A program made the position numbers and the translations under genes. Below, one piece after another: positions 20,484 through 64,000 of a DNA stretch of 64,000 bases. Position 1 is the stretch's first letter. Each line of letters begins with the position of its first letter. The DNA is taken from assembly GCF_000421465.1 (NCBI RefSeq), contig NZ_ATXB01000001.1:1736001-1800000 (forward strand), given 5' to 3'. The notes beneath the pieces are model-generated. The model was given only the letters and a program-made list of their open reading frames with translations. It was not told where the DNA came from and searched no databases. Source of the DNA: Methylohalobius crimeensis 10Ki (lineage in GTDB: Bacteria; Pseudomonadota; Gammaproteobacteria; Methylococcales; Methylothermaceae).

Positions 20484-20549
20484 ATCGTCCCACTTATCGA
20501 GTAATCCACTGTTTACAAATCATACACAAAGAATATGGTTGTGAGAAGC

Positions 20550-20560
20550 TTATACCGTTA
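20550..20560 (-). other. Ter-like site A (left of dif)
   Basis: The minus strand reads TAACGGTATAA here (TTATACCGTTA on plus). It lies 32 bp before the ATG of the Tus-like gene, in an AT-rich stretch that probably holds its promoter. It is inverted relative to the three copies right of dif. Confidence 0.7.
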
Positions 20561-20591
20561 AAATAAAAATAAAATTAATAAACTCGAACCC

Positions 20592-21431
20592 ATGCTTGAT
20601 TCCAACGAAATCACCCTGTGCCGACAATTCGACCGGCTCAAGTCGTCTCTCAACCGCTTCCTGATCCAGTTGGATCGGGAAGCGGCGGCGGCCTGGATAT
20701 TTGATCTGGAAAAAAACGAATATTCCGACGGAGAAGCCCGGCAGCGGCTCGCGGCGGTTCTGGAGCAACTGGAATATCCGGACGATCGGGATGGTCGAGA
20801 AACGGAGATTTGTCCGGGGATCGTGGGCGCATCGCCCAAGTTACTGCATTTGGCCGCGGACCTCAACGAGACTAGAGAAAGTTTCAAGCGCGCCGTCCTC
20901 GAAGTCAATCGTAAGGACCGGGAAACCGCTCACCGCATCATGAAGCAGCAGGGCTACGCCAGGATACATTTCAAGCAGATCTATCGCCATCTGCCGATCC
21001 TGCTGAAGAAACCGGATTCGGTGCGCTTCACCTGGGGGATGACCCGATCGATCAAAAAGATTTCCCGCCAAGAAGCCTACCGCAAACTGATCGCTTTGAC
21101 CGGGGATAATCCGACGCTCGGATTTCAGCGACAACTGGAGGCATTGGCGGCACACCCCAAGGATGAGCCGATCGCCATCGTCCAGGATCTGAAACCGCAC
21201 ATCAAAGCGAACGTGTGCTGGGTGAAAGGCACCGGGAGAGACAAAGAGGTGACTCGAAAAATGATCAGCGCGGCTTTGGCGGTATTGATTCCCTTGGATC
21301 CGGGGGAGAGGCTGCCCACGTATTCGGCCGCTTATCCCGGCAGCCGCAAACCCCGGAAATCCCGGGCGGACGTGAAGATCGAAGCCGAAGCGTTTTTGCC
21401 GTCGATCCGGGGGCATCGATATCTCGAATAA
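20592..21431 (+). CDS. tus: Tus-like replication terminus site-binding protein
   Basis: This 279-residue protein has no signal peptide or membrane segment. Two regions align by eye with E. coli Tus. YRHLPILLKKPDSVRFTWG followed by RSIKKISRQEAYRKL matches the Tus stretch with YRTL, DPATLRFGW and HIIKNLHRDE. KANVCWVKGTGRDKEV matches the region around IARVWYKGDQKQV. E. coli Tus is 309 residues. Tus binds Ter sites and stops replication forks from one side. Support comes from context: a dif site 8 bp after the stop, and a repeated polar 11-mer in its own upstream region and elsewhere. No strong Shine-Dalgarno sequence was seen. Confidence 0.75.
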   Translation: MLDSNEITLCRQFDRLKSSLNRFLIQLDREAAAAWIFDLEKNEYSDGEARQRLAAVLEQLEYPDDRDGRETEICPGIVGASPKLLHLAADLNETRESFKRAVLEVNRKDRETAHRIMKQQGYARIHFKQIYRHLPILLKKPDSVRFTWGMTRSIKKISRQEAYRKLIALTGDNPTLGFQRQLEALAAHPKDEPIAIVQDLKPHIKANVCWVKGTGRDKEVTRKMISAALAVLIPLDPGERLPTYSAAYPGSRKPRKSRADVKIEAEAFLPSIRGHRYLE

Positions 21432-21438
21432 ATTGCTA

Positions 21439-21466
21439 ATTTAACATAATATACATTATGCGAAGT
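21439..21466 (-). other. dif: Chromosome dimer resolution site dif
   Basis: Read on the minus strand, the 28 bp site has XerC arm ACTTCGCATAA, centre TGTATA and XerD arm TTATGTTAAAT. It matches E. coli dif (recalled from memory) at 25 of 28 positions. All three differences lie in the outer four bases of the XerC arm, the part that varies most between species. XerCD recombine dimeric chromosomes here under FtsK control. It lies in the 61 bp gap between the Tus-like gene and thiO. Confidence 0.95.
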
Positions 21467-21492
21467 TTGACATCCGGGCTTTGCGGTCTTTG

Positions 21493-22584
21493 CTACGGAC
21501 GGTTTTCGGGTAGAAAAGCCGCCGGATCCAGAATCGGCGTTCTATCCAGCACCAAATCCGCCAATAATCGGGACGCCGCAGGTCCCATGACCACGCCGTT
21601 GCGGAAATGGCCGCAGTTGTAATACAAGTTGGCCAACTGGGGGTGTCGCCCGATATACGGAATTCCATCCGGCGCGGCCGGACGAAGTCCGGCCCATTGA
21701 AGCACCACCGGACAAGCTTCCAGCGCCGGAAGCGTCTCCACAGCGAACCGGTACAAAGACTGATAAGCGGTCTCGGTCGGACGTTTATCGAAACCTGCTT
21801 CCTCCACCGTGCTCCCTGAAAGTATGCGCCCGTCAATGCGCGGAATCAGATAATGTTGGCCCTGCTGCACCATCGTGGAAAGAAGTTTGGGTGGGGCCTT
21901 GATCAGCAGCATTTGGCCCTTGACCGGTCGGACTTCCGGCTGCCAGAGATCGCCCATCAGCCACTGGGAAGACCAAGCACCGGCTGTCACCACAAAGACA
22001 TCGGATCGGATTTCCTCTCCGGGCGTCTGGACCGCCACGACCCGGCCGCCGCTGAGGCGAAGCCCGGTCACGGGGGTCTTGTCTTTCAATGCGACGCCAC
22101 GCTGACGCAAATCCAGCGTCAGCGCTTTCAGCATCCGGGGGTTGCGTATTTGCGCGATCCCGGGAACCCAGAGCGGTTGGCCGCCGGCCACCCGCCGAAG
22201 CCCCGGTTGTATCTGCTCAATCCCGCTCGAATCCGGGCTGTCCCAGTCGATCCCGAGCCTGCGGCACCATTGCGCGGCCGCATCGAAGTTTTCCAAATTC
22301 AGCCAGAGCATCCCGCATCGCTGCCACTGTGGATCGATGCCGCTAGCCCGAGCTAAGGACTCGGAAAGCGCCGGATAATACTGTTGACTCCATCGAGACA
22401 AGCGCTCAATGGGTTCCGGTTGGCGCCAGGGATATAAGGGAGAGAGAATTCCGCCCCCCGCCCACGAGGCCTCTCGGCCGATCTCAGCGCGTTCGAGCAC
22501 GCTCACTCGCCAGCCGGAAATCGCCAGCTCGCGCGCGCACAACAAGCCGCTGATACCGCCGCCAAGAATGACGCACTCAGTCAT
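21493..22584 (-). CDS. thiO: Glycine oxidase ThiO
   Basis: This 363-residue FAD-dependent amine oxidase makes iminoglycine for the thiazole half of thiamine. The FAD-binding motif is VILGGGISGLLCARELA. A DAO-family C-terminus includes WAGLRPAAPDGIPYIG and GHFRNGVVMGPAASRLLAD. The start at ATG 22584 (MTECVILGGG) removes an unsupported 10-residue extension. No thiG or thiS is adjacent in the window. Confidence 0.88.
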   Translation of the reverse strand: MTECVILGGGISGLLCARELAISGWRVSVLERAEIGREASWAGGGILSPLYPWRQPEPIERLSRWSQQYYPALSESLARASGIDPQWQRCGMLWLNLENFDAAAQWCRRLGIDWDSPDSSGIEQIQPGLRRVAGGQPLWVPGIAQIRNPRMLKALTLDLRQRGVALKDKTPVTGLRLSGGRVVAVQTPGEEIRSDVFVVTAGAWSSQWLMGDLWQPEVRPVKGQMLLIKAPPKLLSTMVQQGQHYLIPRIDGRILSGSTVEEAGFDKRPTETAYQSLYRFAVETLPALEACPVVLQWAGLRPAAPDGIPYIGRHPQLANLYYNCGHFRNGVVMGPAASRLLADLVLDRTPILDPAAFLPENRP

Positions 22585-22655
22585 CATATCGTCCGAATAT
22601 CGAAAATTACCCAATCCAATGTAGACAATACCTGAAAAACGTGATTACAATTGAC

Positions 22656-32058: not shown

Positions 32059-33375
32059 CTAGGATTTTCCCGTTTTTTGGGCATCGTCCAGGGCTTTCAA
32101 GCGCTTGAGCTTTTCGGCGATTTTAATCTCCAGCCCCCGGCCGACCGGATGATAGTAGGGTTTCGGATTTAGACCATCCGGAAAGTAATTTTCACCTGCG
32201 GCATAGCCTTCCGGTTCGTCGTGCGCATAGCGATAGCACTTGCCGTAACCCAGTTCGCGCATCAGTTTGGTGGGCGCGTTACGGAGATGGATCGGAACCT
32301 CTACGCTGCCGGTGGCGGCGGCATCGCGCTGCGCCGCCTGAAAAGCCCGATAAACGGCATTGCTCTTGGGAGCGCATGCCATATATGCTGCCGCTTGCGC
32401 CAAAGCCAACTCGCCTTCCGGACTTCCCAGGCGCTCCTGGGATTCCCAGGCGTCCAGGGATAATTGAAGGGCGCGGGGATCGGCGTTGCCGATGTCCTCG
32501 GAAGCGATCCGCACCAAACGGCGGGCGATGTAAAGCGGATCGCAACCGCCGTCGAGCATTCGGCACAGCCAATACAAGGAGGCATCCGGGGCGCTGCCTC
32601 GAATCGACTTGTGCAAGGCCGAAATCTGGTCGTAGAAGGCATCTCCTTGCTTGTCGAAGCGGCGCACGCTACCTCCGGCCAGCATATCTTTGGCCAACTC
32701 TTCCGAGATCACCGCCCGATTCTTATCGTCACGGGCCAAGTCCACGGCGATCTCCAAAAAATTCAGCAAGCGCCGGGCGTCTCCGTCAGCCGCATCGATA
32801 AACCAGCGGCGAATATTTTCCGGTATTTCAACCGTAAGCTCGCCAAATCCTTCCGGCGTCTCCAAAGCGCGCTCGATCAGTTGCTGCAAATCTTCCGTTT
32901 GGAGCGTTTTGAGGACGTAAACCCGAGCCCGGGACAACAAGGCGTTATTGAGCGCGAAGGAAGGATTTTCGGTGGTCGCGCCGATGAAATAAATCGTCCC
33001 CTCCTCGATGTGAGGGAGAAACGCGTCCTGTTGAGATTTATTGAAACGGTGGACTTCGTCCACGAACAAAATGGTTCGTCGCTCTTGAGCGAGCAAATCT
33101 TTCGCCGCTTCAATGGCGGATCGTATTTCTTTGATGTTGGATAGAACCGCAGATAACGGTATAAATTCAGCATTCGCCACTTCCGCGATCATGCGCGCCA
33201 AGGTCGTCTTCCCGGTGCCCGGCGGCCCCCATAAAATCATGGAATGGAGGCGGCCGTTGTCCACCGCTTCGAACAGCGGCCGTCCGGGGGCCAGCAAATG
33301 ACGTTGGCCGACGAAGTCCGCCAAACGACGAGGCCGCAAACGGTCGGCCAGGGGTCGGAACATATCAGTCGCCAT
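32059..33375 (-). CDS. rarA: Replication-associated recombination protein RarA (MgsA)
   Basis: This 438-residue AAA+ ATPase of the clamp-loader type acts at stalled forks. Walker A is [11 protein letters not shown] and Walker [15 protein letters not shown]. The C-terminal tetramerisation domain carries [13 protein letters not shown]. It forms the conserved ftsK-lolA-rarA unit with its upstream neighbours. The coding sequence contains Ter-like site B. Confidence 0.96.
33151..33166 (+). other. Ter-like site B
   Basis: The 16-mer AGATAACGGTATAAAT is identical to site C. It lies within the rarA coding sequence, so it is not a promoter element of an adjacent start. Confidence 0.65.
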
Positions 33376-42964: not shown

Positions 42965-43017
42965 GAATGGGTCGATATTTGCCGGGGATATATTGTTTAA
43001 TTTTGATTGTTAAATAA

Positions 43018-43033
43018 AGATAACGGTATAAAT
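43018..43033 (+). other. Ter-like site C
   Basis: The 16-mer AGATAACGGTATAAAT ends within the start codon of the oxoprolinase-like gene (ATG at 43032). It is identical to site B. Confidence 0.65.
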
Positions 43034-53342: not shown

Positions 53343-53869
53343 ATACCTATTTGTGGATCAGCCTGCCGGCGCAACGGCTATATCAAATAGATAACGGTAT
53401 AATTATCCGTGAATATCCCATTTCCACCGCCCGCAACGGTCCCGGTGAACTGGAGGGAAGCGGCTGCACCCCGCGCGGATGGCATGCCATCCGCGCCAAA
53501 GTCGGCGCACGATTGCCGCCACGGGCGGTATTGGTGGGACGGCGCCCGAGCGGTGAAATCTACGACGCCGAGCTGGCCCGCCAACATCCAAAGCGGGACT
53601 GGATTTTGAGTCGGATTTTGTGGCTAAGCGGTCTGGAAATCGGTTTTAACCGCTTGGGCAAGCAAGACACCTTCCGCCGCTATATCTATCTTCACGGCAG
53701 CCCCGATCATCTCATCGACGGAAAACCGGGGTCGTGCGGTTGCATCCGCATGCGCAACGCGGACGTGATCGAATTATTCGAGCGGATTGCGGTGGGGACG
53801 CGGGTATACATCGGCGATACCCCTCCTCACTCCGTGAGGTTTCCGACCGACCAGCATCCACTGGCCTAA
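53339..53869 (+). CDS. L,D-transpeptidase family protein (YkuD)
   Basis: This 176-residue YkuD-domain protein has the motif YIYLHGSPDH followed by GSCGCIRMRNADVIELF, with the catalytic cysteine. Such enzymes crosslink peptidoglycan or attach lipoproteins. No signal peptide is visible at the N-terminus (MNTYLWISLPAQRLYQIDNG), so export is unexplained. It overlaps the rlmD stop by 4 bp. Ter-like site D lies within its 5' coding part. Confidence 0.85.
   Translation: MNTYLWISLPAQRLYQIDNGIIIREYPISTARNGPGELEGSGCTPRGWHAIRAKVGARLPPRAVLVGRRPSGEIYDAELARQHPKRDWILSRILWLSGLEIGFNRLGKQDTFRRYIYLHGSPDHLIDGKPGSCGCIRMRNADVIELFERIAVGTRVYIGDTPPHSVRFPTDQHPLA
53389..53404 (+). other. Ter-like site D
   Basis: AGATAACGGTATAATT differs from sites B and C at one of 16 positions. 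It lies in the coding sequence of the L,D-transpeptidase gene. Confidence 0.62.
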
Positions 53870-54605: not shown

Positions 54606-54681
54606 GCTGGCGTAGCTCAGTCGGTAGAGCAACGGATTTGTAATCCGTCGGTCGGGGGTTCGAATCCCTTCGCCAGCTCCA
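54606..54681 (+). tRNA. tRNA-Thr(UGU)
   Basis: The 76 bp gene has a complete cloverleaf: acceptor arms GCTGGCG/CGCCAGC, anticodon stem ACGGA/TCCGT with loop TTTGTAA (anticodon TGT at 54639-54641), T arm with GGTTCGAATCC, and encoded CCA. It marks the left border of the accessory region. No copy of its 3' end was seen downstream in the window. Confidence 0.97.
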
Positions 54682-54705
54682 GTTAAATCAAGTGGTTATA
54701 GGAAA

Positions 54706-54729
54706 CCGGCAACGTAAGCCGGCTTTTTT
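54706..54729 (+). terminator. Terminator after tRNA-Thr
   Basis: The stem CCGGC/GCCGG with loop AACGTAA is followed by CTTTTTT. Confidence 0.75.
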
Positions 54730-54847
54730 GTTGCCGTTACGTTGCCGTTTGGGATTTGAGAAAGGAGATTTTGGGTATTCCCAAGAAAATTTTCAAAGTG
54801 TGATAGGGTTAACGTTTTGCGCTGAAGCTTTCGCTCCTTGCCTCATT

Positions 54848-54865
54848 TATACCTGTTCAGGTATA
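54848..54865. promoter_or_regulatory. 18 bp palindromic operator of the toxin-antitoxin operon
   Basis: TATACCTGTTCAGGTATA is a perfect inverted repeat ending 8 bp before the toxin ATG. It probably binds the helix-turn-helix antitoxin and overlaps the promoter, giving autoregulation. Confidence 0.65.
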
Positions 54866-54873
54866 GTTTCCGC

Positions 54874-55251
54874 ATGGCCGACCAAGAAAAACCGCTCATC
54901 TGGATCGGGAGCAGCAAGAAAGACCTGATGGCGCTTCCAATCAATGCGCGAAAGTTCTTCGGTCACGCTTTAGACTTCGCTCAGCACAGCGATCAGCACG
55001 ATGCAGCGAAGGTCCTAAAAGGCTTCGGCGGCGCCGGTGTCTTGGAAGTGATCAAGGACGATGCGGGCGGAACGTACCGTGCAGTCTACACTGTCAAGTT
55101 TGAAGAAGCCGTGTTCGTCCTGCATTGCTTCCAAAAGAAGAGCAAGAACCGGATCGCCACGCCGAAAGGGGACATCGAGATTATTCGCGCACGGCTAAAA
55201 GTAGCCGCGGCGATCGCTAAGGAAATAAGAGATGACAAAACGCATCGTTGA
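54874..55251 (+). CDS. higB: HigB-like (Gp49/RelE superfamily) toxin
   Basis: This 125-residue protein resembles the Gp49/HigB toxins, whose usual activity is ribosome-dependent mRNA cleavage. The core is LKGFGGAGVLEVIKDDAGGT and YRAVYTVKFEEAVFVLHCFQKKS, the typical RelE-superfamily strand pattern. ATG 54874 (MADQEKPLIW) is chosen directly behind the palindromic operator. The next gene overlaps by 20 bp and encodes a helix-turn-helix partner. Toxin-first order is typical of higBA. Confidence 0.85.
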   Translation: MADQEKPLIWIGSSKKDLMALPINARKFFGHALDFAQHSDQHDAAKVLKGFGGAGVLEVIKDDAGGTYRAVYTVKFEEAVFVLHCFQKKSKNRIATPKGDIEIIRARLKVAAAIAKEIRDDKTHR

Positions 55252-55582
55252 AGGCATCGAGGTCGAAACGGGTTCCGGCAACGTCTTTGCCGACCTTGGC
55301 CTGCCAAACGCCGAAAAGCTCAAGATCAAGTCCGCCCTGGTGATCGAGATCACCAGGGCCGTGCGCAAGCTTGGTCTTACGCAAGATGAAGCTGGCCACC
55401 GCATGGGCATTCCGCAACCAAAGGTATCGGCCTTGTTGCGCGGCGACTTCACCAACCTGTCCGAACGCAAGCTGATGGATTGTCTTAACCGGCTCGGATA
55501 CGACATCGAGATCAAGGTGAAGCCGGCGGAAGAGCCGGTGGGACGCGTGAGGATTGCCAAGGAAGCTCGACCCGGACCTTGA
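55232..55582 (+). CDS. higA: HigA-like helix-turn-helix antitoxin
   Basis: This 116-residue protein carries an XRE-type helix-turn-helix (LGLTQDEAGHRMGIPQPKVS, about residues 48-67) and a C-terminal strand region. It overlaps the toxin gene by 20 bp, and the two should form a type II pair. It probably represses the operon through the palindrome at 54848-54865. Confidence 0.87.
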   Translation: MTKRIVEGIEVETGSGNVFADLGLPNAEKLKIKSALVIEITRAVRKLGLTQDEAGHRMGIPQPKVSALLRGDFTNLSERKLMDCLNRLGYDIEIKVKPAEEPVGRVRIAKEARPGP

Positions 55583-56095
55583 AGATCGTCACGGACCGGG
55601 ACGGGAGAGCTTGCGAAAGCGGCTCACTTGTTGCTGAAGTTTGTCGTTCCAATCATTGCCTTCGTCGGGCCGCCCGCGCCGTTGGAAGTACTACATTGAA
55701 TGATCGAAACATTTTAGCCCCTGTTAGCCCGGCGTTAGCCCGGCTGAATCTGGCGGCTGGTGCGGGGTTTAGCCCGTTTAGCCTGTTTAGCCCTTATATC
55801 ATTAACAATTGACTATGATTAGATTCCAATGAATATATCTAAAGTGCGTTTACTGCCCCCCCCACCGCTAAAGTCAATAAACCACGCGCCCCCACTCCTG
55901 GGGCGTGGAGAGATGAGAATCAATCCATCCTGGCTAGCTGATTTGATTTGGGGTGGGATTGGGGCTCTAGAGCTTAGGCTTGGCTTGATCAAGGTGTAAC
56001 GGGGCGGTAGGAAAGAAGGGGGCGGCCTGGGCTTGCAGCACACCCATCTCCATCGCCCCAGGGGGGGGCCGTGGTTAAGCATGTCCCGCCGATGT
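55583..56095. other. Noncoding region with repeats
   Basis: No convincing gene is present. A 77-codon frame at 55579-55812 only translates repeats and has no support. The region holds six TTAGCCC-type direct repeats (55714-55793) and two copies of a recurring element described separately (55880-55917 and 56045-56076). It may be a control or origin-related segment of the element. Confidence 0.6.
55714..55793 (+). repeat. Six TTAGCCC direct repeats in two clusters
   Basis: TTAGCCC occurs at 55714, 55724 and 55735, then after a 34 bp step at 55769, 55778 (as TTAGCCT) and 55787. Spacing is 9-11 bp, about one helical turn, so a protein could contact all copies on one face. Confidence 0.75.
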
Positions 56096-57053
56096 TTAAA
56101 GATTTAATTTTGATCTGCCAAGTTTTTTCAATGCAGCACTAATTGTTCGTCGAGCATAGCGTTCCGCATCATGGCCGCGCCGCGGGCGGCAATGCTCGAC
56201 GAGATTTTGAAGCACTTGCTCAGGCGTGACACCATTTTCCAGTTGACCCATCACATAACCCCATTCAGAGGCGGATTCATCCCTGATTGATGAACCACGC
56301 CCCCGCCCCTTGCGGCGATGGAGATGATGGGGGTTGGATTTTCCTTCGGTTGGTTGTCCTGCCCTTGTGTTAGCGGGTTGATAGCGTGGCAAATTTGGAT
56401 TTGGAGAGCTGATCAAATTCACCCAGCACCTCCGCTTGTGGCTTTTAAAACCGGGCATCCGGCCGAAGTGCTCGCCGGACACGCTTCCCGGATCACCCAC
56501 CCCCATTTGTATTATCTTTTTTTGCTCCTTGTACCGCTCATGCTGATCGAGAGGCTTGTCTGTCAGTATCCAGGCATGACAGCTGTTGTGGCTTGTCTCG
56601 ATCACCCACGCCTGGTATTTGAGCGAAACTGCCGCCGCCACTTTACGCGGCAAATCATCCAAAAAAATCACCGAGGCGGGATCATTAGCGTGCGGGCGGA
56701 AATACACATCCGCCCCACGCACCGACCGCGCGCGCAAGTGCGGCAAGAATCTCAGAGCATCGTCAAGAAATAAGTGTCGATACGGCCTTTGCACAAATTT
56801 CCATTGTTCTGGTGGGTCGGCTGGATTTTTTGCGAGGCCAAAATCCAGTTGGTCCACCTTTGCCAAACGGCAAAACTCCGTCAAAAAATTTGATTGAATC
56901 TCAGCAATTGATTTACGCATTTCATCTCACCTCCAAAAAAAGCGCCAAGACTTTAGACTCTCCAAAAGTCCGGGCCTCACGGCCCGGACCTTGGCGCAGG
57001 TCAGGCTTGTGATATGCCCATCTCCATCGCCCCTTAGGCGCGCGCGCGTGGTT
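55880..57053. repeat. Four dispersed copies of a 35 bp element
   Basis: Each copy starts near CATCTCCATCGCCCC and ends with GTGGTT, with a variable GC-rich centre. Plus-strand copies lie at 56045-56076 and 57019-57053, minus-strand copies at 55880-55917 and 56293-56326. The copy at 55880 is the most diverged. The third copy lies inside the primase-like gene. Confidence 0.65.
56096..56920 (-). CDS. RepB-type plasmid primase-like protein
   Basis: This 274-residue protein has the RepB_primase pattern: GADVYFRPHANDPASVIFLD followed by DL, then AWVIETSHNSCHAWIL. The acidic pair and the ETS-x-N-x-x-AW motif match the primase part of RSF1010 RepB' and related plasmid primases. The C-terminal third is basic, with the low-complexity HHLHRRKGRGRGSS. 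GGAGGTGAGATGAA precedes the ATG. It lies next to iterons and hairpins in the replication module. It would prime replication at single-strand initiation sites. Confidence 0.7.
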   Translation of the reverse strand: MRKSIAEIQSNFLTEFCRLAKVDQLDFGLAKNPADPPEQWKFVQRPYRHLFLDDALRFLPHLRARSVRGADVYFRPHANDPASVIFLDDLPRKVAAAVSLKYQAWVIETSHNSCHAWILTDKPLDQHERYKEQKKIIQMGVGDPGSVSGEHFGRMPGFKSHKRRCWVNLISSPNPNLPRYQPANTRAGQPTEGKSNPHHLHRRKGRGRGSSIRDESASEWGYVMGQLENGVTPEQVLQNLVEHCRPRRGHDAERYARRTISAALKKLGRSKLNL

Positions 57054-57117
57054 CACCACCCCACATCAAGGCCAGGGGCTCGCGCCCCTGGCTTTTGGAA
57101 AGTCCAAACCCACCACA

Positions 57118-57169
57118 AGCCCTCGACAAGGGGGGGGCTTTTGAGAAGCCCCCCCCCTTGTCGAGGGCT
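57118..57169. repeat. Large G/C-tract inverted repeat, candidate ssi site
   Basis: The arms AGCCCTCGACAAGG...CTT and AAGC...CCTTGTCGAGGGCT are complementary over about 23 bp. They contain an 8-9 base G or C run, differing by one base between arms, around a 5 nt loop (TTGAG). Confidence 0.75.
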
Positions 57170-57207
57170 CCTGAATATATTCTTACTGAAATATATTCCT
57201 GAAGGAT

Positions 57208-57302
57208 CGGGCTTTAACGGAACGCTTGGACACAGGTGAACGAAAATGGACAACTCGGCCGGGCTTTTACGGAACGCCTGCCGGGCTTTAACGGAACGCC
57301 TG
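57208..57302 (+). repeat. Three 21 bp iterons
   Basis: The core CGGGCTTTAACGGAACGC occurs at 57208-57228 and 57282-57302. A copy with one change lies at 57260-57280 (TTTTACGG). The second and third are 22 bp apart, about two helical turns. All point the same way, and they lie just past the repC-like gene, as iterons of IncQ plasmids do. Confidence 0.88.
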
Positions 57303-57310
57303 ATAATGCT

Positions 57311-58069
57311 CTAAATCCGTTTAATACGATCATCATCAACCTCAATCCCTATTTCACGAAGTTCTTTGGCATCGGATCTAATTTGCCATCTCGCTTTCCT
57401 CATCTCCCTTGCAGACAGATCACCGGATGCTGCTATGATCAGCGTGTCAATTCGCCAGCCGCCTGCAGGCGTTTTGGAATGAGACAAGACATGCCTCGCC
57501 ACCGCCTGCGATATTCCATGTTTCGTCTGGTTGATCGATTCCACATCATAGTAAAGAGGAATGTCATCTCGCAAAAAAGCTCTCCCTACTCTTCCTATTT
57601 TCACAACCCACAGTTTTCTTTCTCCGCCGAACGGGTTAAACTTCAATTTGTTTGATTCACATACTTCATCGATCAGATGCCCCTTGACTCTACTGATTCT
57701 TCTATTTGGTATAGTCACATCAAGCAGTGTGGTCATGATATCATCAAGCAATTTATGAATCGTTTCATAGCTGTAATGATTTTTCTTATCTGTCAATTTC
57801 CTCCGAATGGTATAGAAATCAATTAACAGATAAATACAACCATCCACTTCTTTCTTGTTAATCGCATTATTCATGATCGTCTCAATCAGCGTGGCATGCA
57901 CTTGCCCCAGCCTTCCTTTTACCTTCACTTTTCCCCAGCTAGTTTTAATTTCCTTTATCTGGTTTGTCGGTCGCTTTGACGCTTGAAATATTCTACAACG
58001 GTGCTGATGCACCGTTGTCGTAGGCAATAAAGCCTCCTTCAAAATATTCAAACTATTCCTTTCAACCAT
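57311..58069 (-). CDS. RepC-like plasmid replication initiator
   Basis: This 252-residue protein shows a two-winged-helix pattern. Its C-terminal part ISQAVARHVLSHSKTPAGGW then RIDTL, and later SAREMRKARWQIRSDAKELR, aligns by eye with the C-terminal half of RSF1010 RepC (a SIDTL and a TMRKRRQRVREAL stretch). RepC binds the iterons and opens the origin. The ATG overlaps the repA-like gene by 22 bp, and the iterons follow its stop. This context makes the call more secure than the sequence alone. Confidence 0.72.
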   Translation of the reverse strand: MVERNSLNILKEALLPTTTVHQHRCRIFQASKRPTNQIKEIKTSWGKVKVKGRLGQVHATLIETIMNNAINKKEVDGCIYLLIDFYTIRRKLTDKKNHYSYETIHKLLDDIMTTLLDVTIPNRRISRVKGHLIDEVCESNKLKFNPFGGERKLWVVKIGRVGRAFLRDDIPLYYDVESINQTKHGISQAVARHVLSHSKTPAGGWRIDTLIIAASGDLSAREMRKARWQIRSDAKELREIGIEVDDDRIKRI

Positions 58070-59049
58070 TCCGGCACCTCCTCTTTTTTGCTGTTTCCTT
58101 CAATCATTGAAATATGCGGACTCCCTCCTTTTTTGGTTTTCCTATTTCTCTCCTTTTCCATGTTAGCAGCTTCCTTTAGATCCAGTATTTCGGAATTCGC
58201 AGGACTTAAAACTCCGTGCAGCCCCCGCCGAAACCAACACTCATTTCCTTTTTTACCGTAATTGATTTTGCTTCCTTCCAGTTTCACAAAATCAAGTCTC
58301 TCAGTCTTGTCTATTCCCATCTCTTTTGCTTCATTCACACTCATGTCATTTAAATTTATTTGATATCTAACATTGTCAGTCAACACCGAATGTCCTCGAG
58401 CCGCCGTTTGTGATCCTCCGCCACCATTTTGTAGTGAGCTTTTATTCATGTGGTGGCAAATCAATACTGTGCAACCTGTTTCTTCAGCTAAACCTTCAAT
58501 CACAGACAAAAATAACATCATCATTGAATCATCGGTTTCACTTTCCAGGTGAAACCTTCTCATTGTATCTAGAATTATCAGTCGCTTTCCTTGCACCATT
58601 TTATGCACTTGATTGACCCAATGCTCACTTATTTCTCCGTTTTGAATTAAAAAGTGTTTTTTGATCGAATAAATTGATAAGTTTTCATCTAATTTTTCAA
58701 TAGTTCCGATATCAAGTTTTTTGGCAAATTGCTTGATTCGATGCAAAATTACCACAACAGGATCTTCGGCAGTTATATAAGATGCTTTACCGCTTCCGTA
58801 AATCCAATCTTCCTTTTCTGATATTTCACAAAAATCAATACCTGTTGCAACAGATGCGCAAAGTTGCAAAGCAAGATTTGATTTTCCGACGCCGCCGGGA
58901 GAAACAATTAAACCTAGACTACCCGCAAGCAAACCGGGAATCACAAAATCCAATTCAGGTAAATCTTCATTTATCGCATCAATAATGCTAATTGATCCGT
59001 CTGTTTTAATGAATTCATGCCCTGGTTCAATTCTTGATTCAATATCCAT
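58048..59049 (-). CDS. RSF1010 RepA-like hexameric helicase
   Basis: This 333-residue RecA-fold ATPase strongly resembles IncQ RepA: Walker A VSPGGVGKSNLALQL, Walker B LIILDTMRRFHLESE, and the segment TGCTVLICHHMNKSS followed by ARGHSVLTDNVRYQ. RSF1010 RepA has near-identical motifs (VSPGGAGKSMLALQL, LDTLRRFH, SRGSSVLVDN), recalled from memory. It is the 5'-3' replicative helicase of those plasmids. ATG 59049 is preferred because of AAGGAGGGG just upstream. The ATP and DNA motifs are intact. Confidence 0.88.
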   Translation of the reverse strand: MDIESRIEPGHEFIKTDGSISIIDAINEDLPELDFVIPGLLAGSLGLIVSPGGVGKSNLALQLCASVATGIDFCEISEKEDWIYGSGKASYITAEDPVVVILHRIKQFAKKLDIGTIEKLDENLSIYSIKKHFLIQNGEISEHWVNQVHKMVQGKRLIILDTMRRFHLESETDDSMMMLFLSVIEGLAEETGCTVLICHHMNKSSLQNGGGGSQTAARGHSVLTDNVRYQINLNDMSVNEAKEMGIDKTERLDFVKLEGSKINYGKKGNECWFRRGLHGVLSPANSEILDLKEAANMEKERNRKTKKGGSPHISMIEGNSKKEEVPEWLKGIV

Positions 59050-59050
59050 T

Positions 59051-59269
59051 TCAAACCCCTCCTTCCTTGATAAACCGCTCAATATCTTCACCCCGCCAAA
59101 CACTCACTCTCCCAATTTTTACTGGCCCCGGAAATTTACCCTGCCTGATCCAGTTATAAAAAGTTGAGCGACAAACAGGTATGATTGGTTCAATGCCTTT
59201 CTTTTTGTCACCGATAATATCTCCAATTCTAAAAAGCCTCTTTTCAGTCAAAAAATTATGTTTCCTCAT
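59051..59269 (-). CDS. AlpA-like helix-turn-helix regulator
   Basis: This 72-residue protein has the MerR/AlpA excisionase-like pattern FRIGDIIGDKKKGIEPIIPV, STFYNWIRQGKFPGPVKIGR and VSVWRGEDIERFI. It is the first gene of the replication operon, 1 bp before repA. Proteins of this type act as activators or excisionases. An 8 bp inverted repeat lies just upstream of it and may be its binding site. Confidence 0.85.
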   Translation of the reverse strand: MRKHNFLTEKRLFRIGDIIGDKKKGIEPIIPVCRSTFYNWIRQGKFPGPVKIGRVSVWRGEDIERFIKEGGV

Positions 59270-59280
59270 GATTGCAATCC

Positions 59281-59305
59281 GTTCCAGTTTGTTAGTGACT
59301 GGAAC
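59281..59305. promoter_or_regulatory. Inverted repeat upstream of alpA-like gene
   Basis: GTTCCAGT and ACTGGAAC are exact 8 bp reverse complements separated by 9 bp. They lie 12 bp upstream of the alpA-like start, where an operator would be. Confidence 0.55.
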
Positions 59306-59559
59306 AGGTTATGACAATCCACCAAAATGCAATTTTTAGTAAAAGCCCCAAAATCGCGTTTATCCGTAAACACGTCCCCCAACCCCCGAAATCTAACAAC
59401 AAACACAAGCGGCCAAATCTTATGGGACGCATCCGGACGCCCGAGTTTTTGAATAAACACGATTTCACGCTTTTATTTCCTCACGTCGATCTCGATATTC
59501 GCTGGTAACATGATTGTGTCGCTGATGAAAGCGACTTTCTAGACAACATGGCGAATTGG
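59306..59559 (+). other. Noncoding stretch, possible small RNA
   Basis: No CDS is convincing here. A strong plus-strand terminator (59560-59585) follows with no gene to serve, so a small RNA from this stretch is possible. A 65-codon frame at 59311-59508 lacks support. Confidence 0.35.
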
Positions 59560-59585
59560 AAGGGCGCTCCGGCGCCCTTTTTTTT
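59560..59585 (+). terminator. Strong plus-strand terminator
   Basis: The stem AAGGGCGC/GCGCCCTT with loop TCCG is followed by a run of T. Confidence 0.88.
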
Positions 59586-59683
59586 GAATAAAACGATTTT
59601 GCACCGTTTTTTTTTGCACAGATTTGTGTACATGCATGCAAACTTGCTCTCAAGATTTAATAAATTAAACGGTTGAGAGCCTT
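59586..59683 (+). promoter_or_regulatory. Upstream region of the 736 aa secreted-protein gene
   Basis: AT-rich DNA carries two TTTTGCAC repeats near 59597-59620 and an inverted pair CTCTCAA/TTGAGAG (59650-59679) right before the ATG. A promoter is likely, but its elements cannot be fixed. Confidence 0.4.
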
Positions 59684-61894
59684 ATGTTTAAGCTTAAAAA
59701 AATTGAATACTCAAATAATTTAATTGGCTGGCTTGGTTTTTTGATGCTACTTGTATATTTGTTAACTTTTCTCATACCAATCGCCACCGCCCAGGCCGCC
59801 GACCAAGCCGGCTTCAGCGCCACCGATCCGGGCTCGGAGCCTGGCCAGGATCCGCAAACCAAGTTCATCTACGACCCGGTAAAGCTGACGAACCAAGGCG
59901 GCGACAATCCGCTTTCCAGCGCTCCTGCCGGCCCGGTCGATTCCGAGGGAAATCCAGTAGACCCGAATCGGGTTATCGATCCGGAAGATCTCCCAGAAAC
60001 CCAGACCGACACCGACCGCGATTTCAATTTTGGCGGCCTTGGGTACCAAGACTCCACTTTCGTCCCCGGCCGGTCGACCTTCGCGGATCCAAATGTCCGC
60101 CTGACCGGCACGACCCTGGGCATTGATAACGTCTGCGTCGATTTTCAAAACGAGCAAGTTACCGACGCGAACGGCAACACGCGAACGGTCCAATATTGTG
60201 CCGATTACGATCCCCGGTACCGGACCCGCCTAACTTGGCTCGGGGAGCGGTCGCCAAGGTGCCAGGGCATCCCCGGTGCGACCTTCCATTTCGATGAGAG
60301 CATTCCAGGTTATCAAGGCACCATCACAGTGACGGATCTGCTCGATGACGAGTCGGGGGAAACCAAAACCTATCGGTTGGAGTGCTACGGGGATGACGGC
60401 GAGCTTAATCCTGCCAGCTATACAGTCGGCCAAGGCGCCAGCCAACCGGATTCCGTGACCGTTTCCATCCAGGCGGACCGAACCTCGCTGATCCGCGGCC
60501 AAAGCACACGAATCCACTGGAACTCATCATCCGCGCTTCGATGCCTACTAAACGGGGATCAGGTTCCTTTCAACGGTTCCCGGCGGGTCACCCCGAATGC
60601 CAATACGACCTATGTCCTCCGATGCTCCGGCCTCGGCGGCTCCGCCCGGGATTCGGTGACCATTCGAGTGAATGATCCGCCACCGCCTCCTGAATTCAAT
60701 GTCACGCTGAATGTGCCCAGTGTCATCACCAACATGTCCGGCCAGGTCTCGTGGAGCACAAACCTGCAAGCCGATTCGTGTGACCTGTGGGCTCGCCGGC
60801 CACACAGCGGGCGGCCTAACCGTTTCACCTTGGCATGGAAATCCAATCTTCCGGGATCGGGAAATCGGGCGGTTTCCAGTTTTTTCCCTGTTGGGGTAGA
60901 AGGCCCTTATGTATTCGAAATCGAATGTCATAAAGCCGGGTTCGACAATGCGTTTGCAAGCAAGCAAACCGAGTTCGTTAGAAAGCAATCATCAAGTTCA
61001 GGCAGCTGCCCACCTGGCACCCATGTGGTCATCGCGTTCCCGAGGAACCGGTGTGAGCCCGATAGCAAGCCTTCGGATCCAGTTGATCCGCCTTTGGTCG
61101 ACCTCGAGGGCAATGATTCAGTCAAGCCGGGGGCCTCGTTCACGCTCGGATTGAGCGTCGATCCCGCCGCCAGTTGCTCCTATTCGGCTTCGGGTGCCAT
61201 CAGCGGTTCCGGAAGCCTTGGAACTGTGAACGGCTCCCGGGGCTTTGGTCAGATGGCGCCGAATGTGACCTCTCCAACATCGGTGACCTACAGGGTTGAT
61301 TGCACGGCCAACGGGAAATCTGGATCGGATTCGCATCGGGTCAACATCACCCCGGAGCCGGCGTTGAATGTGTCGGTCTCCGCGTCACCCTCACCGGTCC
61401 GGTCGGGGGATTTTATAACGGCGACCGTGAATGTCTCCCCCGTGGCGGCATCTTGCACCTATCAACTGAGCGGGGCCATGAGCGGAACCGGAAACGTGGG
61501 CACGGTTTCCGGGAGCAAAAGAAAATCCTTCAGGGCGCCGAACGTTAATCGCCGAACTCCCCTGAATATGAGTGCCACCTGCCGCAAATCTGGGTACAAA
61601 TCGGATTCGGGTTCCACTTCGGTCACCGTGGAACCGGTGCCGGAGCCGAAGTTGACAATTAATGTGGCCACTAGCGTGTTCGGGGCCGGGGGTAATCGCT
61701 TCCGGAGGATTCGGTGGACGGCTTCTGTGCCGGGGTCGACCTGCCGAATTTGGGATGATTTTGGGTATGACAAGAACCATAACGATGATAACGGAAATAT
61801 CACAATTCCTCGTCCGAACGAAGGCGATTCCGACGGCTGGATTCAATGCGCAAGCCCCAAAGGTCAAAAAACACCAGTAATGAAGATTTTCTAA
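59684..61894 (+). CDS. Secreted Ig-domain repeat protein, 736 aa
   Basis: The product has a signal peptide (FLMLLVYLLTFLIPIATAQA), an acidic Pro/Asp-rich N-terminal region, then about four to five Ig-like domains from residue 260 on. Many show the pattern Trp...Cys...Cys, for example RIHWNSSSALRCLLNG and NTTYVLRCSGLGG. No catalytic motif or membrane anchor was found. It is followed by another protein with the same type of domain. It could be a surface, conjugation-related or adhesion protein. The family was not recognised. Confidence 0.75.
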   Translation: MFKLKKIEYSNNLIGWLGFLMLLVYLLTFLIPIATAQAADQAGFSATDPGSEPGQDPQTKFIYDPVKLTNQGGDNPLSSAPAGPVDSEGNPVDPNRVIDPEDLPETQTDTDRDFNFGGLGYQDSTFVPGRSTFADPNVRLTGTTLGIDNVCVDFQNEQVTDANGNTRTVQYCADYDPRYRTRLTWLGERSPRCQGIPGATFHFDESIPGYQGTITVTDLLDDESGETKTYRLECYGDDGELNPASYTVGQGASQPDSVTVSIQADRTSLIRGQSTRIHWNSSSALRCLLNGDQVPFNGSRRVTPNANTTYVLRCSGLGGSARDSVTIRVNDPPPPPEFNVTLNVPSVITNMSGQVSWSTNLQADSCDLWARRPHSGRPNRFTLAWKSNLPGSGNRAVSSFFPVGVEGPYVFEIECHKAGFDNAFASKQTEFVRKQSSSSGSCPPGTHVVIAFPRNRCEPDSKPSDPVDPPLVDLEGNDSVKPGASFTLGLSVDPAASCSYSASGAISGSGSLGTVNGSRGFGQMAPNVTSPTSVTYRVDCTANGKSGSDSHRVNITPEPALNVSVSASPSPVRSGDFITATVNVSPVAASCTYQLSGAMSGTGNVGTVSGSKRKSFRAPNVNRRTPLNMSATCRKSGYKSDSGSTSVTVEPVPEPKLTINVATSVFGAGGNRFRRIRWTASVPGSTCRIWDDFGYDKNHNDDNGNITIPRPNEGDSDGWIQCASPKGQKTPVMKIF

Positions 61895-61919
61895 TTCATA
61901 ATTTGTATATGAGGTATTT

Positions 61920-63311
61920 ATGAAAAAGCGTTTATTGCTATTGATGTTTTTTCCTGGGGTTGTTTTTGCAACACCTGGGGTAAATCTTATTTCTCCGGGA
62001 GATGATGAATTTCTAACCGTTGGCGCCACCATTTTTGTTCAGTGGGAAAGCCAGGGAGTGGAATCCTGTCGCGTTGAGTTTCCGGGCGGGGTCGAGGAAA
62101 ACTTACCTTCGTCCGGGGTATTTATTTCTCCAGAACTAAGTGAATCCGGCCCGGGAACGGTAACTGTAAGTTGTGAAAATCCCGCCGGCCAAACCGTCTC
62201 GGATTCGGCATCCTTTACAGTTCAGCCGGCCCCACCGGGGCCTAATCCTCTCGTTGATACTTATCTGTCCCCAGACATCGGAATGCTTGGGGAATACAAT
62301 CCGATGGAGACGGTTCAAGTATCCTGGGAAGTCGATACCACCCGTACTTCCGTTGATTCATGCGTTGGTGTGATTGACAATCCTCCATTTTCCACGATTT
62401 CCCCAATCACGGAAGGTGGAATGGGTCAAGAAGACGAAGAATTCAAAATCGATAGTGTAACTGGGAGTATTGACATAATCACTGACACTAGCAAAGAAAT
62501 TGAAATAATTTGTACTAACAACGCGATTAATTTTCGCGTTCCAACGGGTTTTTTTATTAAAATAAAACAATCCGACTTCTCCGCCAACAAACCTTTCTAC
62601 GTTCCCGGCGAAACGATCCGGATCGAATGGGTATTACCCGAAGATGAGGTCGTTCTAGAATCTTGTCAAGGCAATTTCGGCACCAAGAAATTCGAGGTTG
62701 ATTTCGACCGTTTTATTGAATTCGATTCCTCCGAATCGGTCACCGGTATCGAGCGCTCCGCCTTCGGCCGCCGGGACTTCGTGGCCGAGAAGCCGGTCGT
62801 CGCCAGGATTGAATGTGATCGCTTTGATGGCGGAACGGAAACCAAAATTGTTAAAGTCTTCGTGGACGACCCGACGACGCCAGCCGACAATACCGGCGCC
62901 TTCACGGATGATAAGGGGACCGATTTTGCTGAACTGGAATCGCCGAATGGCTTTCCCTGGCACGCACCGTTCCCGGAGGACATGGAATTCGATGTCCCGG
63001 TCACTCGCCTGGAAACCGGAAACACGATCGCCATCAGTTCAATCAATGTCGGCGGGACATCTTACTGGGCCCGGTTGGTTCCAGTACCGCATCCGGACGG
63101 GCGCATGGCGTGGAAACTGGGGCAAGCTGGGCTCTCGAAAGGCCTTCCGTTGCCGGGGAATGTGTATGATCCCGCAACGGAAAAGGTCACATTTGACCGG
63201 GTCGATGCCGAGGAAATCGATGGGGTCTATCGGGCGGTGTTGGAACCTTGGAACAATCTGGAGGATCCGGCTATGCACTGGGTATTGAAGGAAGTGCATC
63301 GAGTCGAGTGA
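61920..63311 (+). CDS. Secreted Ig-domain protein, 463 aa
   Basis: The product has a signal peptide (LLLLMFFPGVVFA) and at least three Ig-like domains with paired cysteines, such as IFVQWESQGVESCRVEF with VTVSCENPAG, and IRIEWVLPEDEVVLESCQGN. The C-terminal 110 residues (WHAPFPEDMEFDVPVTRLET onwards) are not Ig-like and were not recognised. GAGGT precedes the ATG. It lies 25 bp after the previous gene and probably belongs to the same operon, ending at the terminator at 63330. Confidence 0.75.
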   Translation: MKKRLLLLMFFPGVVFATPGVNLISPGDDEFLTVGATIFVQWESQGVESCRVEFPGGVEENLPSSGVFISPELSESGPGTVTVSCENPAGQTVSDSASFTVQPAPPGPNPLVDTYLSPDIGMLGEYNPMETVQVSWEVDTTRTSVDSCVGVIDNPPFSTISPITEGGMGQEDEEFKIDSVTGSIDIITDTSKEIEIICTNNAINFRVPTGFFIKIKQSDFSANKPFYVPGETIRIEWVLPEDEVVLESCQGNFGTKKFEVDFDRFIEFDSSESVTGIERSAFGRRDFVAEKPVVARIECDRFDGGTETKIVKVFVDDPTTPADNTGAFTDDKGTDFAELESPNGFPWHAPFPEDMEFDVPVTRLETGNTIAISSINVGGTSYWARLVPVPHPDGRMAWKLGQAGLSKGLPLPGNVYDPATEKVTFDRVDAEEIDGVYRAVLEPWNNLEDPAMHWVLKEVHRVE

Positions 63312-63329
63312 TTACCTCGTCCACTTGGA

Positions 63330-63353
63330 GCCGCCTTCGGGCGGCCATTTTTT
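63330..63353 (+). terminator. Terminator after the secreted-protein operon
   Basis: The stem GCCGCC/GGCGGC with a TTCG loop is followed by CATTTTTT. Confidence 0.9.
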
Positions 63354-63381
63354 AAACAAAAAATTGGAGTAATCGCATTCA

Positions 63382-64000
63382 ATGAGCGCTTTTGGAGGCA
63401 TCACAAACATCTACCTGTCAAAGATACCCATCAAGGAGCATCTCTTGAGAAAAATAAATCGGATGAACCTTGAGATCCTGTTTTTGGCCCGCGACCTCGC
63501 GAAAACCAACCCCGACCTCGCATCCAAATTATTTGGATTTCCCGACTTCGTCATGGAAATCGTCACCCAGTTAAATCGAGCCGATATTCGCAAGATGGCG
63601 AAAAGCACCACCCCCATTTTCGCGTTGAAAATTCCTCCCAGGACGTGGAGCCATAATCTCGAGCGACAATCGCTCCGAGGGCTTGCTCAGTCGGAAACGC
63701 CTCCATCATTTCGACAAGACGTCCCGCTTATGGAAGAGACGCCCGAATCTCCCGAACCAAGACTCATGAGGCAATTCAGAAGAATCTGCCTGGAGGTTCT
63801 CCTAATGATACGGGACGAAGTCGACATCGATCCCGAGGGCGTTTCCACCCTGTTCGGTATTTCCAAATCCGAAATGCAGGTCATCGCCAAAATGCGGCGT
63901 GACGACATTCATGAGATGGCGGAGGAAGCCCAACCGGTTTTCGCGCTGATACTTCCTCCCAGGGTTTGGAAGCGAATCATCGAACGTAACACGCTGCTGG
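63382..64000 (+). CDS. Tandem FlhD-like protein, 5' part
   Basis: The frame runs from ATG 63382 off the right edge (206 codons seen). It contains two related domains of about 75 residues: the first begins HLLRKINRMNLEILFLARDL, the second LMRQFRRICLEVLLMIRDEV. Both continue with LFGF/LFGI, a Met/Ile-rich helix, an R(A/D)DI segment and a MA..(T/A)(T/Q)P.FAL.(I/L)PPR.W motif. The pattern recalls FlhD, which has LLLAQRL and a KLA..N.L..FR end. FlhDC-type activators control transfer genes in IncC plasmids and SXT elements. Homology is suggested by eye only. Confidence 0.5.
   Translation, partial: MSAFGGITNIYLSKIPIKEHLLRKINRMNLEILFLARDLAKTNPDLASKLFGFPDFVMEIVTQLNRADIRKMAKSTTPIFALKIPPRTWSHNLERQSLRGLAQSETPPSFRQDVPLMEETPESPEPRLMRQFRRICLEVLLMIRDEVDIDPEGVSTLFGISKSEMQVIAKMRRDDIHEMAEEAQPVFALILPPRVWKRIIERNTLL

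Follow-up and report, generated by a model that had tools for sequence, protein, structure and literature searches.

A divergent Tus–Ter replication fork trap with a Ter sequence of its own probably encloses dif in the Methylothermaceae

The dif site of Methylohalobius crimeensis 10Ki very probably lies inside a replication fork trap of the Tus–Ter type, formed by a divergent Tus and a new Ter sequence in the family Methylothermaceae (Methylococcales). This reading is drawn from the DNA of a 64,000-nucleotide stretch, hereafter the window (contig C1, 1,736,001–1,800,000), and of related genomes. In the proposed mechanism, a Tus-like protein encoded beside dif would bind a site of about 15 bp, WTTATACCGTTATCT, in the promoter region of its own gene, and would bind the same 15-bp site at six to eight further places near dif in each of three closed or near-closed genomes. 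The sites on either side of dif face each other. A fork would enter the region, pass dif, and undergo polar arrest at the first site that it meets beyond dif, and the two forks would be made to meet between the innermost sites, which are 10–26 kb apart with dif inside. In addition, the site that precedes tus (Ter1) may let Tus repress its own expression.

The dif site is located at positions 21439–21466 on the minus strand, where the 28-mer reads ACTTCGCATAATGTATATTATGTTAAAT. The original prediction, that 25 of the 28 bases match E. coli dif with the full centre and XerD arm, is borne out by comparison with MG1655, in which the reference sequence is present exactly. The 6-bp centre and the XerD arm are identical, and the three mismatches are all among the four outermost bases of the XerC arm, the arm to which the differences had been assigned. 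The claim that a chance match in 64 kb is negligible holds as well, with one match at up to 3 mismatches in the window and none in 100 shuffled windows. The gap between the flanking open reading frames is 61 bp, as predicted (21432–21492). On its far side is a thiO-like gene (21493–22614, minus strand; TIGR02352, 270.4 bits against a cut-off of 250.8), the convergent neighbor of the tus-like gene across dif, which serves here as context only. A search of the whole genome (3.51 Mb, 5 contigs) with the inner 24 bases of dif and up to 3 mismatches gives one match, the single copy that had been foreseen. The genome encodes XerD (382 bits, above cut-off) and a second Xer-type recombinase, which reaches 283 bits when scored with the XerD model alone. 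Comparison of sequences thus confirms 21439–21466 as the chromosomal dif, the predicted XerC/XerD site for the resolution of chromosome dimers. Taken alone, this dif is ordinary.

In the order, a dif-like match is present in 57 of 61 genomes, M. crimeensis included (55 single, 2 double), and four genomes have none at the stringency used. Some arrangements of dif are unusual. G049 has two dif or dif-like sites of like orientation 6.4 kb apart (contig C7, 35466 and 41866), and G093 has two that are 9 kb apart and also of like orientation (contig C1, 3759951 and 3769006). G056 has two dif or dif-like sites as well (contigs C22 and C76), and 3 bases separate dif from a contig end in both G056 and G029 (contig C44, 3–28). 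Elements integrated at dif by Xer are a possible explanation for these four genomes.

Elsewhere in the window, a tRNA-Thr gene (54606–54681) is followed by DNA of low G+C content (down to 0.46 within 54606–64000). Three open reading frames in this segment (56096–56920, 57311–58069, and 58048–59103) appear to resemble plasmid replication proteins, and two long proteins have signal-like starts. The segment 54606–64000 is possibly an integrated element.

GC skew in 10-kb bins is positive to the left of dif (+0.02 to +0.12), drops to about zero in the bin that adjoins dif on that side, and is negative throughout the right side (−0.01 to −0.09). The change of sign that was expected near the site is therefore located at dif, and the maximum of the cumulative skew is 13 kb to the left. 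The KOPS motif GGGNAGGG converges on dif, with 34 forward and 14 reverse copies in the 200 kb on the left and 8 and 42, respectively, on the right. The original prediction read dif as the marker of the replication terminus. That reading is supported, but it is incomplete, in that the adjoining tus homologue and the polar putative Ter sites were missed.

The tus-like gene (20592–21431, plus strand) encodes a protein of 279 residues. The gene runs toward dif, and its stop codon is 7 bp before the site. The protein scores 29.3 bits with the Pfam family PF05472 (Ter), passing the cut-off of 22, and stays far below the cut-offs of the NCBIfam equivalog models for Tus (NF002810, 22.9 of 323 bits; TIGR02648, 15.0 of 178.3 bits). 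When a profile of ten sequences from the genus is searched against 177,635 PDB sequences, three E. coli Tus sequences are the best matches (E 0.0013–0.0017). The profile is needed for this result, as a phmmer search of the PDB with the single protein found no Tus. The AlphaFold model of the protein is weak (pLDDT 51.5, built with 7 sequences). In a Foldseek search with this weak model, E. coli Tus is the sole match at E ≤ 0.001 (E 4e-4), and the superposition is poor (TM 0.33, rmsd 16.8, 14% identity). With the same weak model, the VIA list is headed by Tus (Z 8.8, rmsd 4.4, 172 aligned), and unrelated helical proteins reach Z 8.4. Family and profile matches, together with a fold comparison made with a weak model, suggest that the gene beside dif encodes a divergent Tus, the replication-terminator protein.

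The gene is conserved in the genus. It is found in 10 of 10 sampled genomes, with the copy of G001 cut by a contig end, and the proteins outside the own genome are 60–71% identical to the protein studied here. The distance between tus and dif is at most 60 bp in eight of these ten genomes, 290 bp in G002, and 3.7 kb in G001. In the order, a search with the single protein finds tus in 15 of 121 genomes, and one with the genus profile finds it in 17 of 311 genomes, which belong to 5 of 50 genera. G093 and G099 are matched by the single protein (E about 1e-4) and are absent from the matches of the profile search. The gene is also present in six MAG records of Methylothermaceae, one of which is Methylohalobius sp. 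SKW56.

Upstream of tus is a promoter-like pair, TTTACA-16-TATGGT (20512–20539, plus strand), proposed from its match to the consensus only. The pair is followed by 10 bases, by the putative Ter1 (20550–20564, plus strand; TTATACCGTTAAAAT), and then by the start codon of tus. DNA alignment shows the 11-mer TTATACCGTTA before tus in all nine genus genomes that have this stretch; in G001 it is lost at a contig end. Exact copies of the 11-mer number 71 across the ten genomes of the genus, versus 10 for a reversed control pattern. A longer 13-mer, TTATACCGTTATC, occurs 61 times in the same ten genomes and 13 times, once each, in 111 other genomes of the order, where it is about as frequent as its reversed control. 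The consensus of the 61 of 71 sites whose flanks were covered is AWTTATACCGTTATCT, and the second base after the 11-mer is C in 55 of the 61.

Seven copies of the 11-mer are present in the genome studied here, four to the left of dif and three to the right. The left copies are on the plus strand at −185.4, −27.3, −25.8, and −0.9 kb from dif, and the right copies are on the minus strand at +11.7, +21.6, and +32.0 kb. The window holds four putative Ter copies, versus none in 100 shuffles, and gives 10 matches versus 4.2 expected when 2 mismatches are allowed. Ter1 is the innermost site on the left. The innermost site on the right, Ter2 (33150–33164, minus strand), is inside a gene for a rarA-like AAA ATPase (32059–33375, minus strand). 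Ter3 (43017–43031, minus strand) is intergenic, and Ter4 (53388–53402, minus strand) is inside a gene resembling L,D-carboxypeptidase/transpeptidase. The distance between the innermost sites is 12.6 kb here and 10.4–26.3 kb in the six contigs that have sites on both sides; dif is always between these sites, and the Ter next to tus is the innermost on its side in 6 of 6.

The sites are confined to the region of dif and have uniform polarity. In G000, G003, and G009, which are closed or near-closed, all 24 sites face dif from a distance of at most 190 kb. Across the dif-bearing contigs of the genus, 45 of 45 sites point toward dif; these 45 are drawn from related genomes and cannot be counted as independent, and the other 26 of the 71 sites are on contigs without dif. 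Polarity in one genome is not rare by itself, as 8 of 189 11-mers with at least 7 copies in 400 kb of the own genome, mostly G-rich ones, are perfectly polar about dif. Therefore, the case rests on the confinement of the sites, the copy in the tus promoter region, and the repetition across the genus, rather than on polarity in a single genome.

The site at the position of Ter2 allows a comparison at the level of codons. Among the sites covered, six genomes have it at the same codons (E/Q/K-F-I-P-L-S-A). In all six, Ile is encoded by ATA and Leu by TTA, codons that make up 5.4% of Ile codons and 4.5% of Leu codons, respectively, in 15 genes of the window. The keeping of these rare codons in 6 of 6 genomes in which the site was found argues that Ter2 is under constraint at the DNA level. 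Given a tus homologue and a polar set of putative Ter sites, the terminus is therefore probably a fork trap of the Tus type.

The lengths of the replication arms bear on whether such a trap works. In G003 and G009, the sampled skew turns from negative to positive near mnmG. This gene, standing in for oriC by analogy with E. coli, is therefore taken as the origin. An origin at dnaA was rejected, as dnaA is at base 113 of both genomes and the sampled skew has no switch there. The dnaA gene is about 0.75–0.8 Mb from mnmG and from the skew minimum (contig C1 of G003 and of G009), and the origin in this genus seems not to be at dnaA. The replichores of G009 are balanced (47:53), and so are those of G000 (about 51:49, with the contig order inferred from skew and small contigs left out). 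In G003, a single contig of 2.69 Mb, the arms from mnmG to dif are 0.73 and 1.96 Mb (27:73), and forks of equal speed would be expected to meet near 2.10 Mb. The skew of G003, sampled every 135 kb (20 samples, origin placed by mnmG), is positive in the five samples at 0.87–1.43 Mb and negative in the nine at 1.545–2.645 Mb. Therefore, the switch is at dif (1.485 Mb) within the sampling. A switch at dif despite arms of 27:73 is what a working trap would give, and is indirect evidence for one. A recent rearrangement or a wrong assembly could also produce arms of 27:73, and the switch would then be uninformative about the trap. We consider this a serious possibility and lean only slightly against it: G003 is the only genome with unequal arms, its skew is coarsely sampled, its origin is placed through mnmG, and skew can follow dif while the trap sits elsewhere, as in Cedecea neteri according to the accessible text of PMC8707476, but all 20 samples fit two clean arms.

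The direction of the sites can be compared with that in other tus-bearing genomes. In a sister family (G033, G066, and G057; 34% identity), ATGATACTGTTATCA stands before tus. Aligned in the same sense relative to tus, it shares 12 of 15 bases with the genus site; reversed, it shares 9 of 14. G033 has five such sites in two mutually inverted groups, one 20–23 kb to the left of dif and the other 23–26 kb to its right, all pointing away from dif. G066 has the same layout with four sites, dif not being located in that genome; both genomes also have 3 matches with 2 mismatches far from the array. G057, which bears tus, has one site within 2 mismatches genome-wide, at tus, and a further inverted 2-mismatch copy of a shorter motif 83 bp from it. 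G093 has two copies of a related motif, both on one side of dif and pointing away from it. The tus gene of E. coli points away from dif and is preceded by TerB; the blocking face of this tus-side Ter is upstream, as the accessible text of PMC8707476 describes the face. With the motif aligned in its best-scoring direction, the sites would face the opposite way, relative to dif, from those of two sister families. If all of these are traps, the genus studied here would have its blocking face at the opposite end of the motif. The direction of motif homology is uncertain, because the sister-family motif is close to palindromic.

The bases and residues of the putative lock were compared as well. Read from the tus-side face, 55 of 61 sites have a G at the place of E. 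coli G(6), and the flank at this face is richer in A+T (0.67 versus 0.53). Read in the tus direction, the base is T because the search pattern requires it, and 400 kb of this genome, scanned with one mismatch allowed, gave no site with G at that base. Residues F140, H144, and G149 form, we assume, the cytosine (C6) pocket of E. coli Tus. In the Tus-like protein, they align with other residues, G149 with an Arg that is invariant in the genus. Our tentative proposal, which we consider possible but rather doubtful, is that the polarity of Tus–Ter is reversed in the Methylothermaceae. Forks would be blocked at the motif end that is permissive in the sister families and in E. coli, through a GC pair at the opposite end and without a cytosine pocket of the E. 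coli type, and tus, Ter, and all the sites would have been turned together relative to dif.

The same observations can be read without a trap, with dif as the only functional part, the Tus-like gene as a relic or a mere self-repressor, and the polar repeats as DNA signs of another kind that leave forks unhindered, read, for example, by a DNA translocase or a nucleoid protein. The missing lock residues, the orientation opposite to that of similar sites in the sister family, and the polarity of other 11-mers about dif (8/189) are all in its favor. We nevertheless consider it unlikely, as the tus promoter region carries a site identical to the others in 9 of 9 genomes, the gene is intact in 10 of 10 genomes of the genus (the contig end in G001 aside), and the sites number just 7–9 or so per genome, unlike KOPS-type motifs. 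It is very improbable that the gene belongs to a mobile element recently arrived at the terminus, with the repeats as its traces rather than a resident trap: 52 plasmid records do carry relatives at E ≤ 1, and the accessible text of PMC6549158 gives tus genes a plasmid origin, but the gene keeps its place beside dif in 9 of 10 genomes at 60–71% protein identity, and the site inside rarA is at the same codons in six genomes.

The purpose of Tus fork traps is called unclear in the accessible text of recent papers (2019–2026; PMC6549158, PMC8347550, PMC10331603, PMC12809603). If our reading of a fork trap is true, the methanotrophs of the Methylothermaceae would add a further resident Tus lineage, one that has a Ter sequence of its own and keeps tus, Ter, and dif within 1 kb. 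Two features would bear on the purpose of the trap: dif is inside a trap of 10–26 kb in all six contigs with sites on both sides, and one closed genome (G003) keeps its skew switch at the trap with one arm 2.7 times the other. In addition, the system would offer a new Tus–Ter pair whose lock seems to be of a different kind, and perhaps also a polar barrier to forks that has changed direction.

The dif part resembles XerCD/dif of E. coli in having a 28-bp site with an exact centre and XerD arm, in single copy and at the GC-skew switch, with Xer recombinases encoded; three outer bases of the XerC arm are changed here. On the MG1655 chromosome, the position of dif is about 1,590.8 kb and that of tus 1,684.3 kb, whereas here tus ends 7 bp from dif.

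Among the plasmid homologues of Tus, the best, from Halomonas sp. KO116, belongs to the same family and is 29.5% identical over 97% of the query. The three plasmid loci examined differ in having no good copy of the motif beside tus, and an ancestral Ter-like site was not found there. The 52 plasmid records at E ≤ 1 include Vibrio, Pseudomonas, Marinobacter, Halomonas, and Methylophaga, and also L257, L258, and L259; among the best 15 of the 52, most are annotated as hypothetical protein. Other Tus proteins were found in 10 of 369 genomes of Gammaproteobacteria (6 of 272 genera), nine of them above the cut-off. Divergent Tus-like genes are present in other gammaproteobacterial families (G150, G294, G400, G223, G339, G438, G225, and G237), several of these genomes being 1.4–1.6 Mb, and an inverted pair of GGTTATGGGATAA-like sequences precedes tus in G150 and G400. 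In the surroundings of tus in G294, G438, G225, and G237 (40–160 kb each), three have no dif at up to 6 mismatches and G237 has one poor match with 6, and no upstream motif stands out from AT-rich repeats in any of the four.

According to the accessible text of Galli et al. (2019; PMC6549158), resident tus genes occur only in Enterobacterales, Pseudoalteromonas, and Aeromonadales, and other tus genes are called mobile; later papers repeat these lineages in the text available from them (PMC8347550, PMC10331603, PMC12809603). Like those resident Tus proteins, the protein described here matches PF05472 and keeps its genomic position within the group. It differs in belonging to another order, Methylococcales, and tus is present in all 10 sampled genomes of one genus. 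Among the papers listed by a literature search that covered mostly open-access journal articles, none was seen to report Tus, Ter, or a fork trap in Methylococcales. As far as the accessible text of these sources extends, the trap is unreported and outside the lineages in print for resident Tus.

The closest parallel is the type I trap of Dickeya paradisiaca and Edwardsiella tarda, as described in the accessible text of PMC8707476, where type I means that the tus-vicinal Ter is innermost and where 18 kb is the extreme narrow case. Here too, the Ter before tus is the innermost on its side and the putative trap around dif is narrow, with 12.6 kb between the innermost sites (10.4–26.3 kb in the genus) versus the 18 kb of D. 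paradisiaca. The differences are that four sites are on the left and three on the right, that tus runs toward dif, and that the Ter core is another one. Judged by the positions of its predicted sites, the putative trap of M. crimeensis fits the definition of type I.
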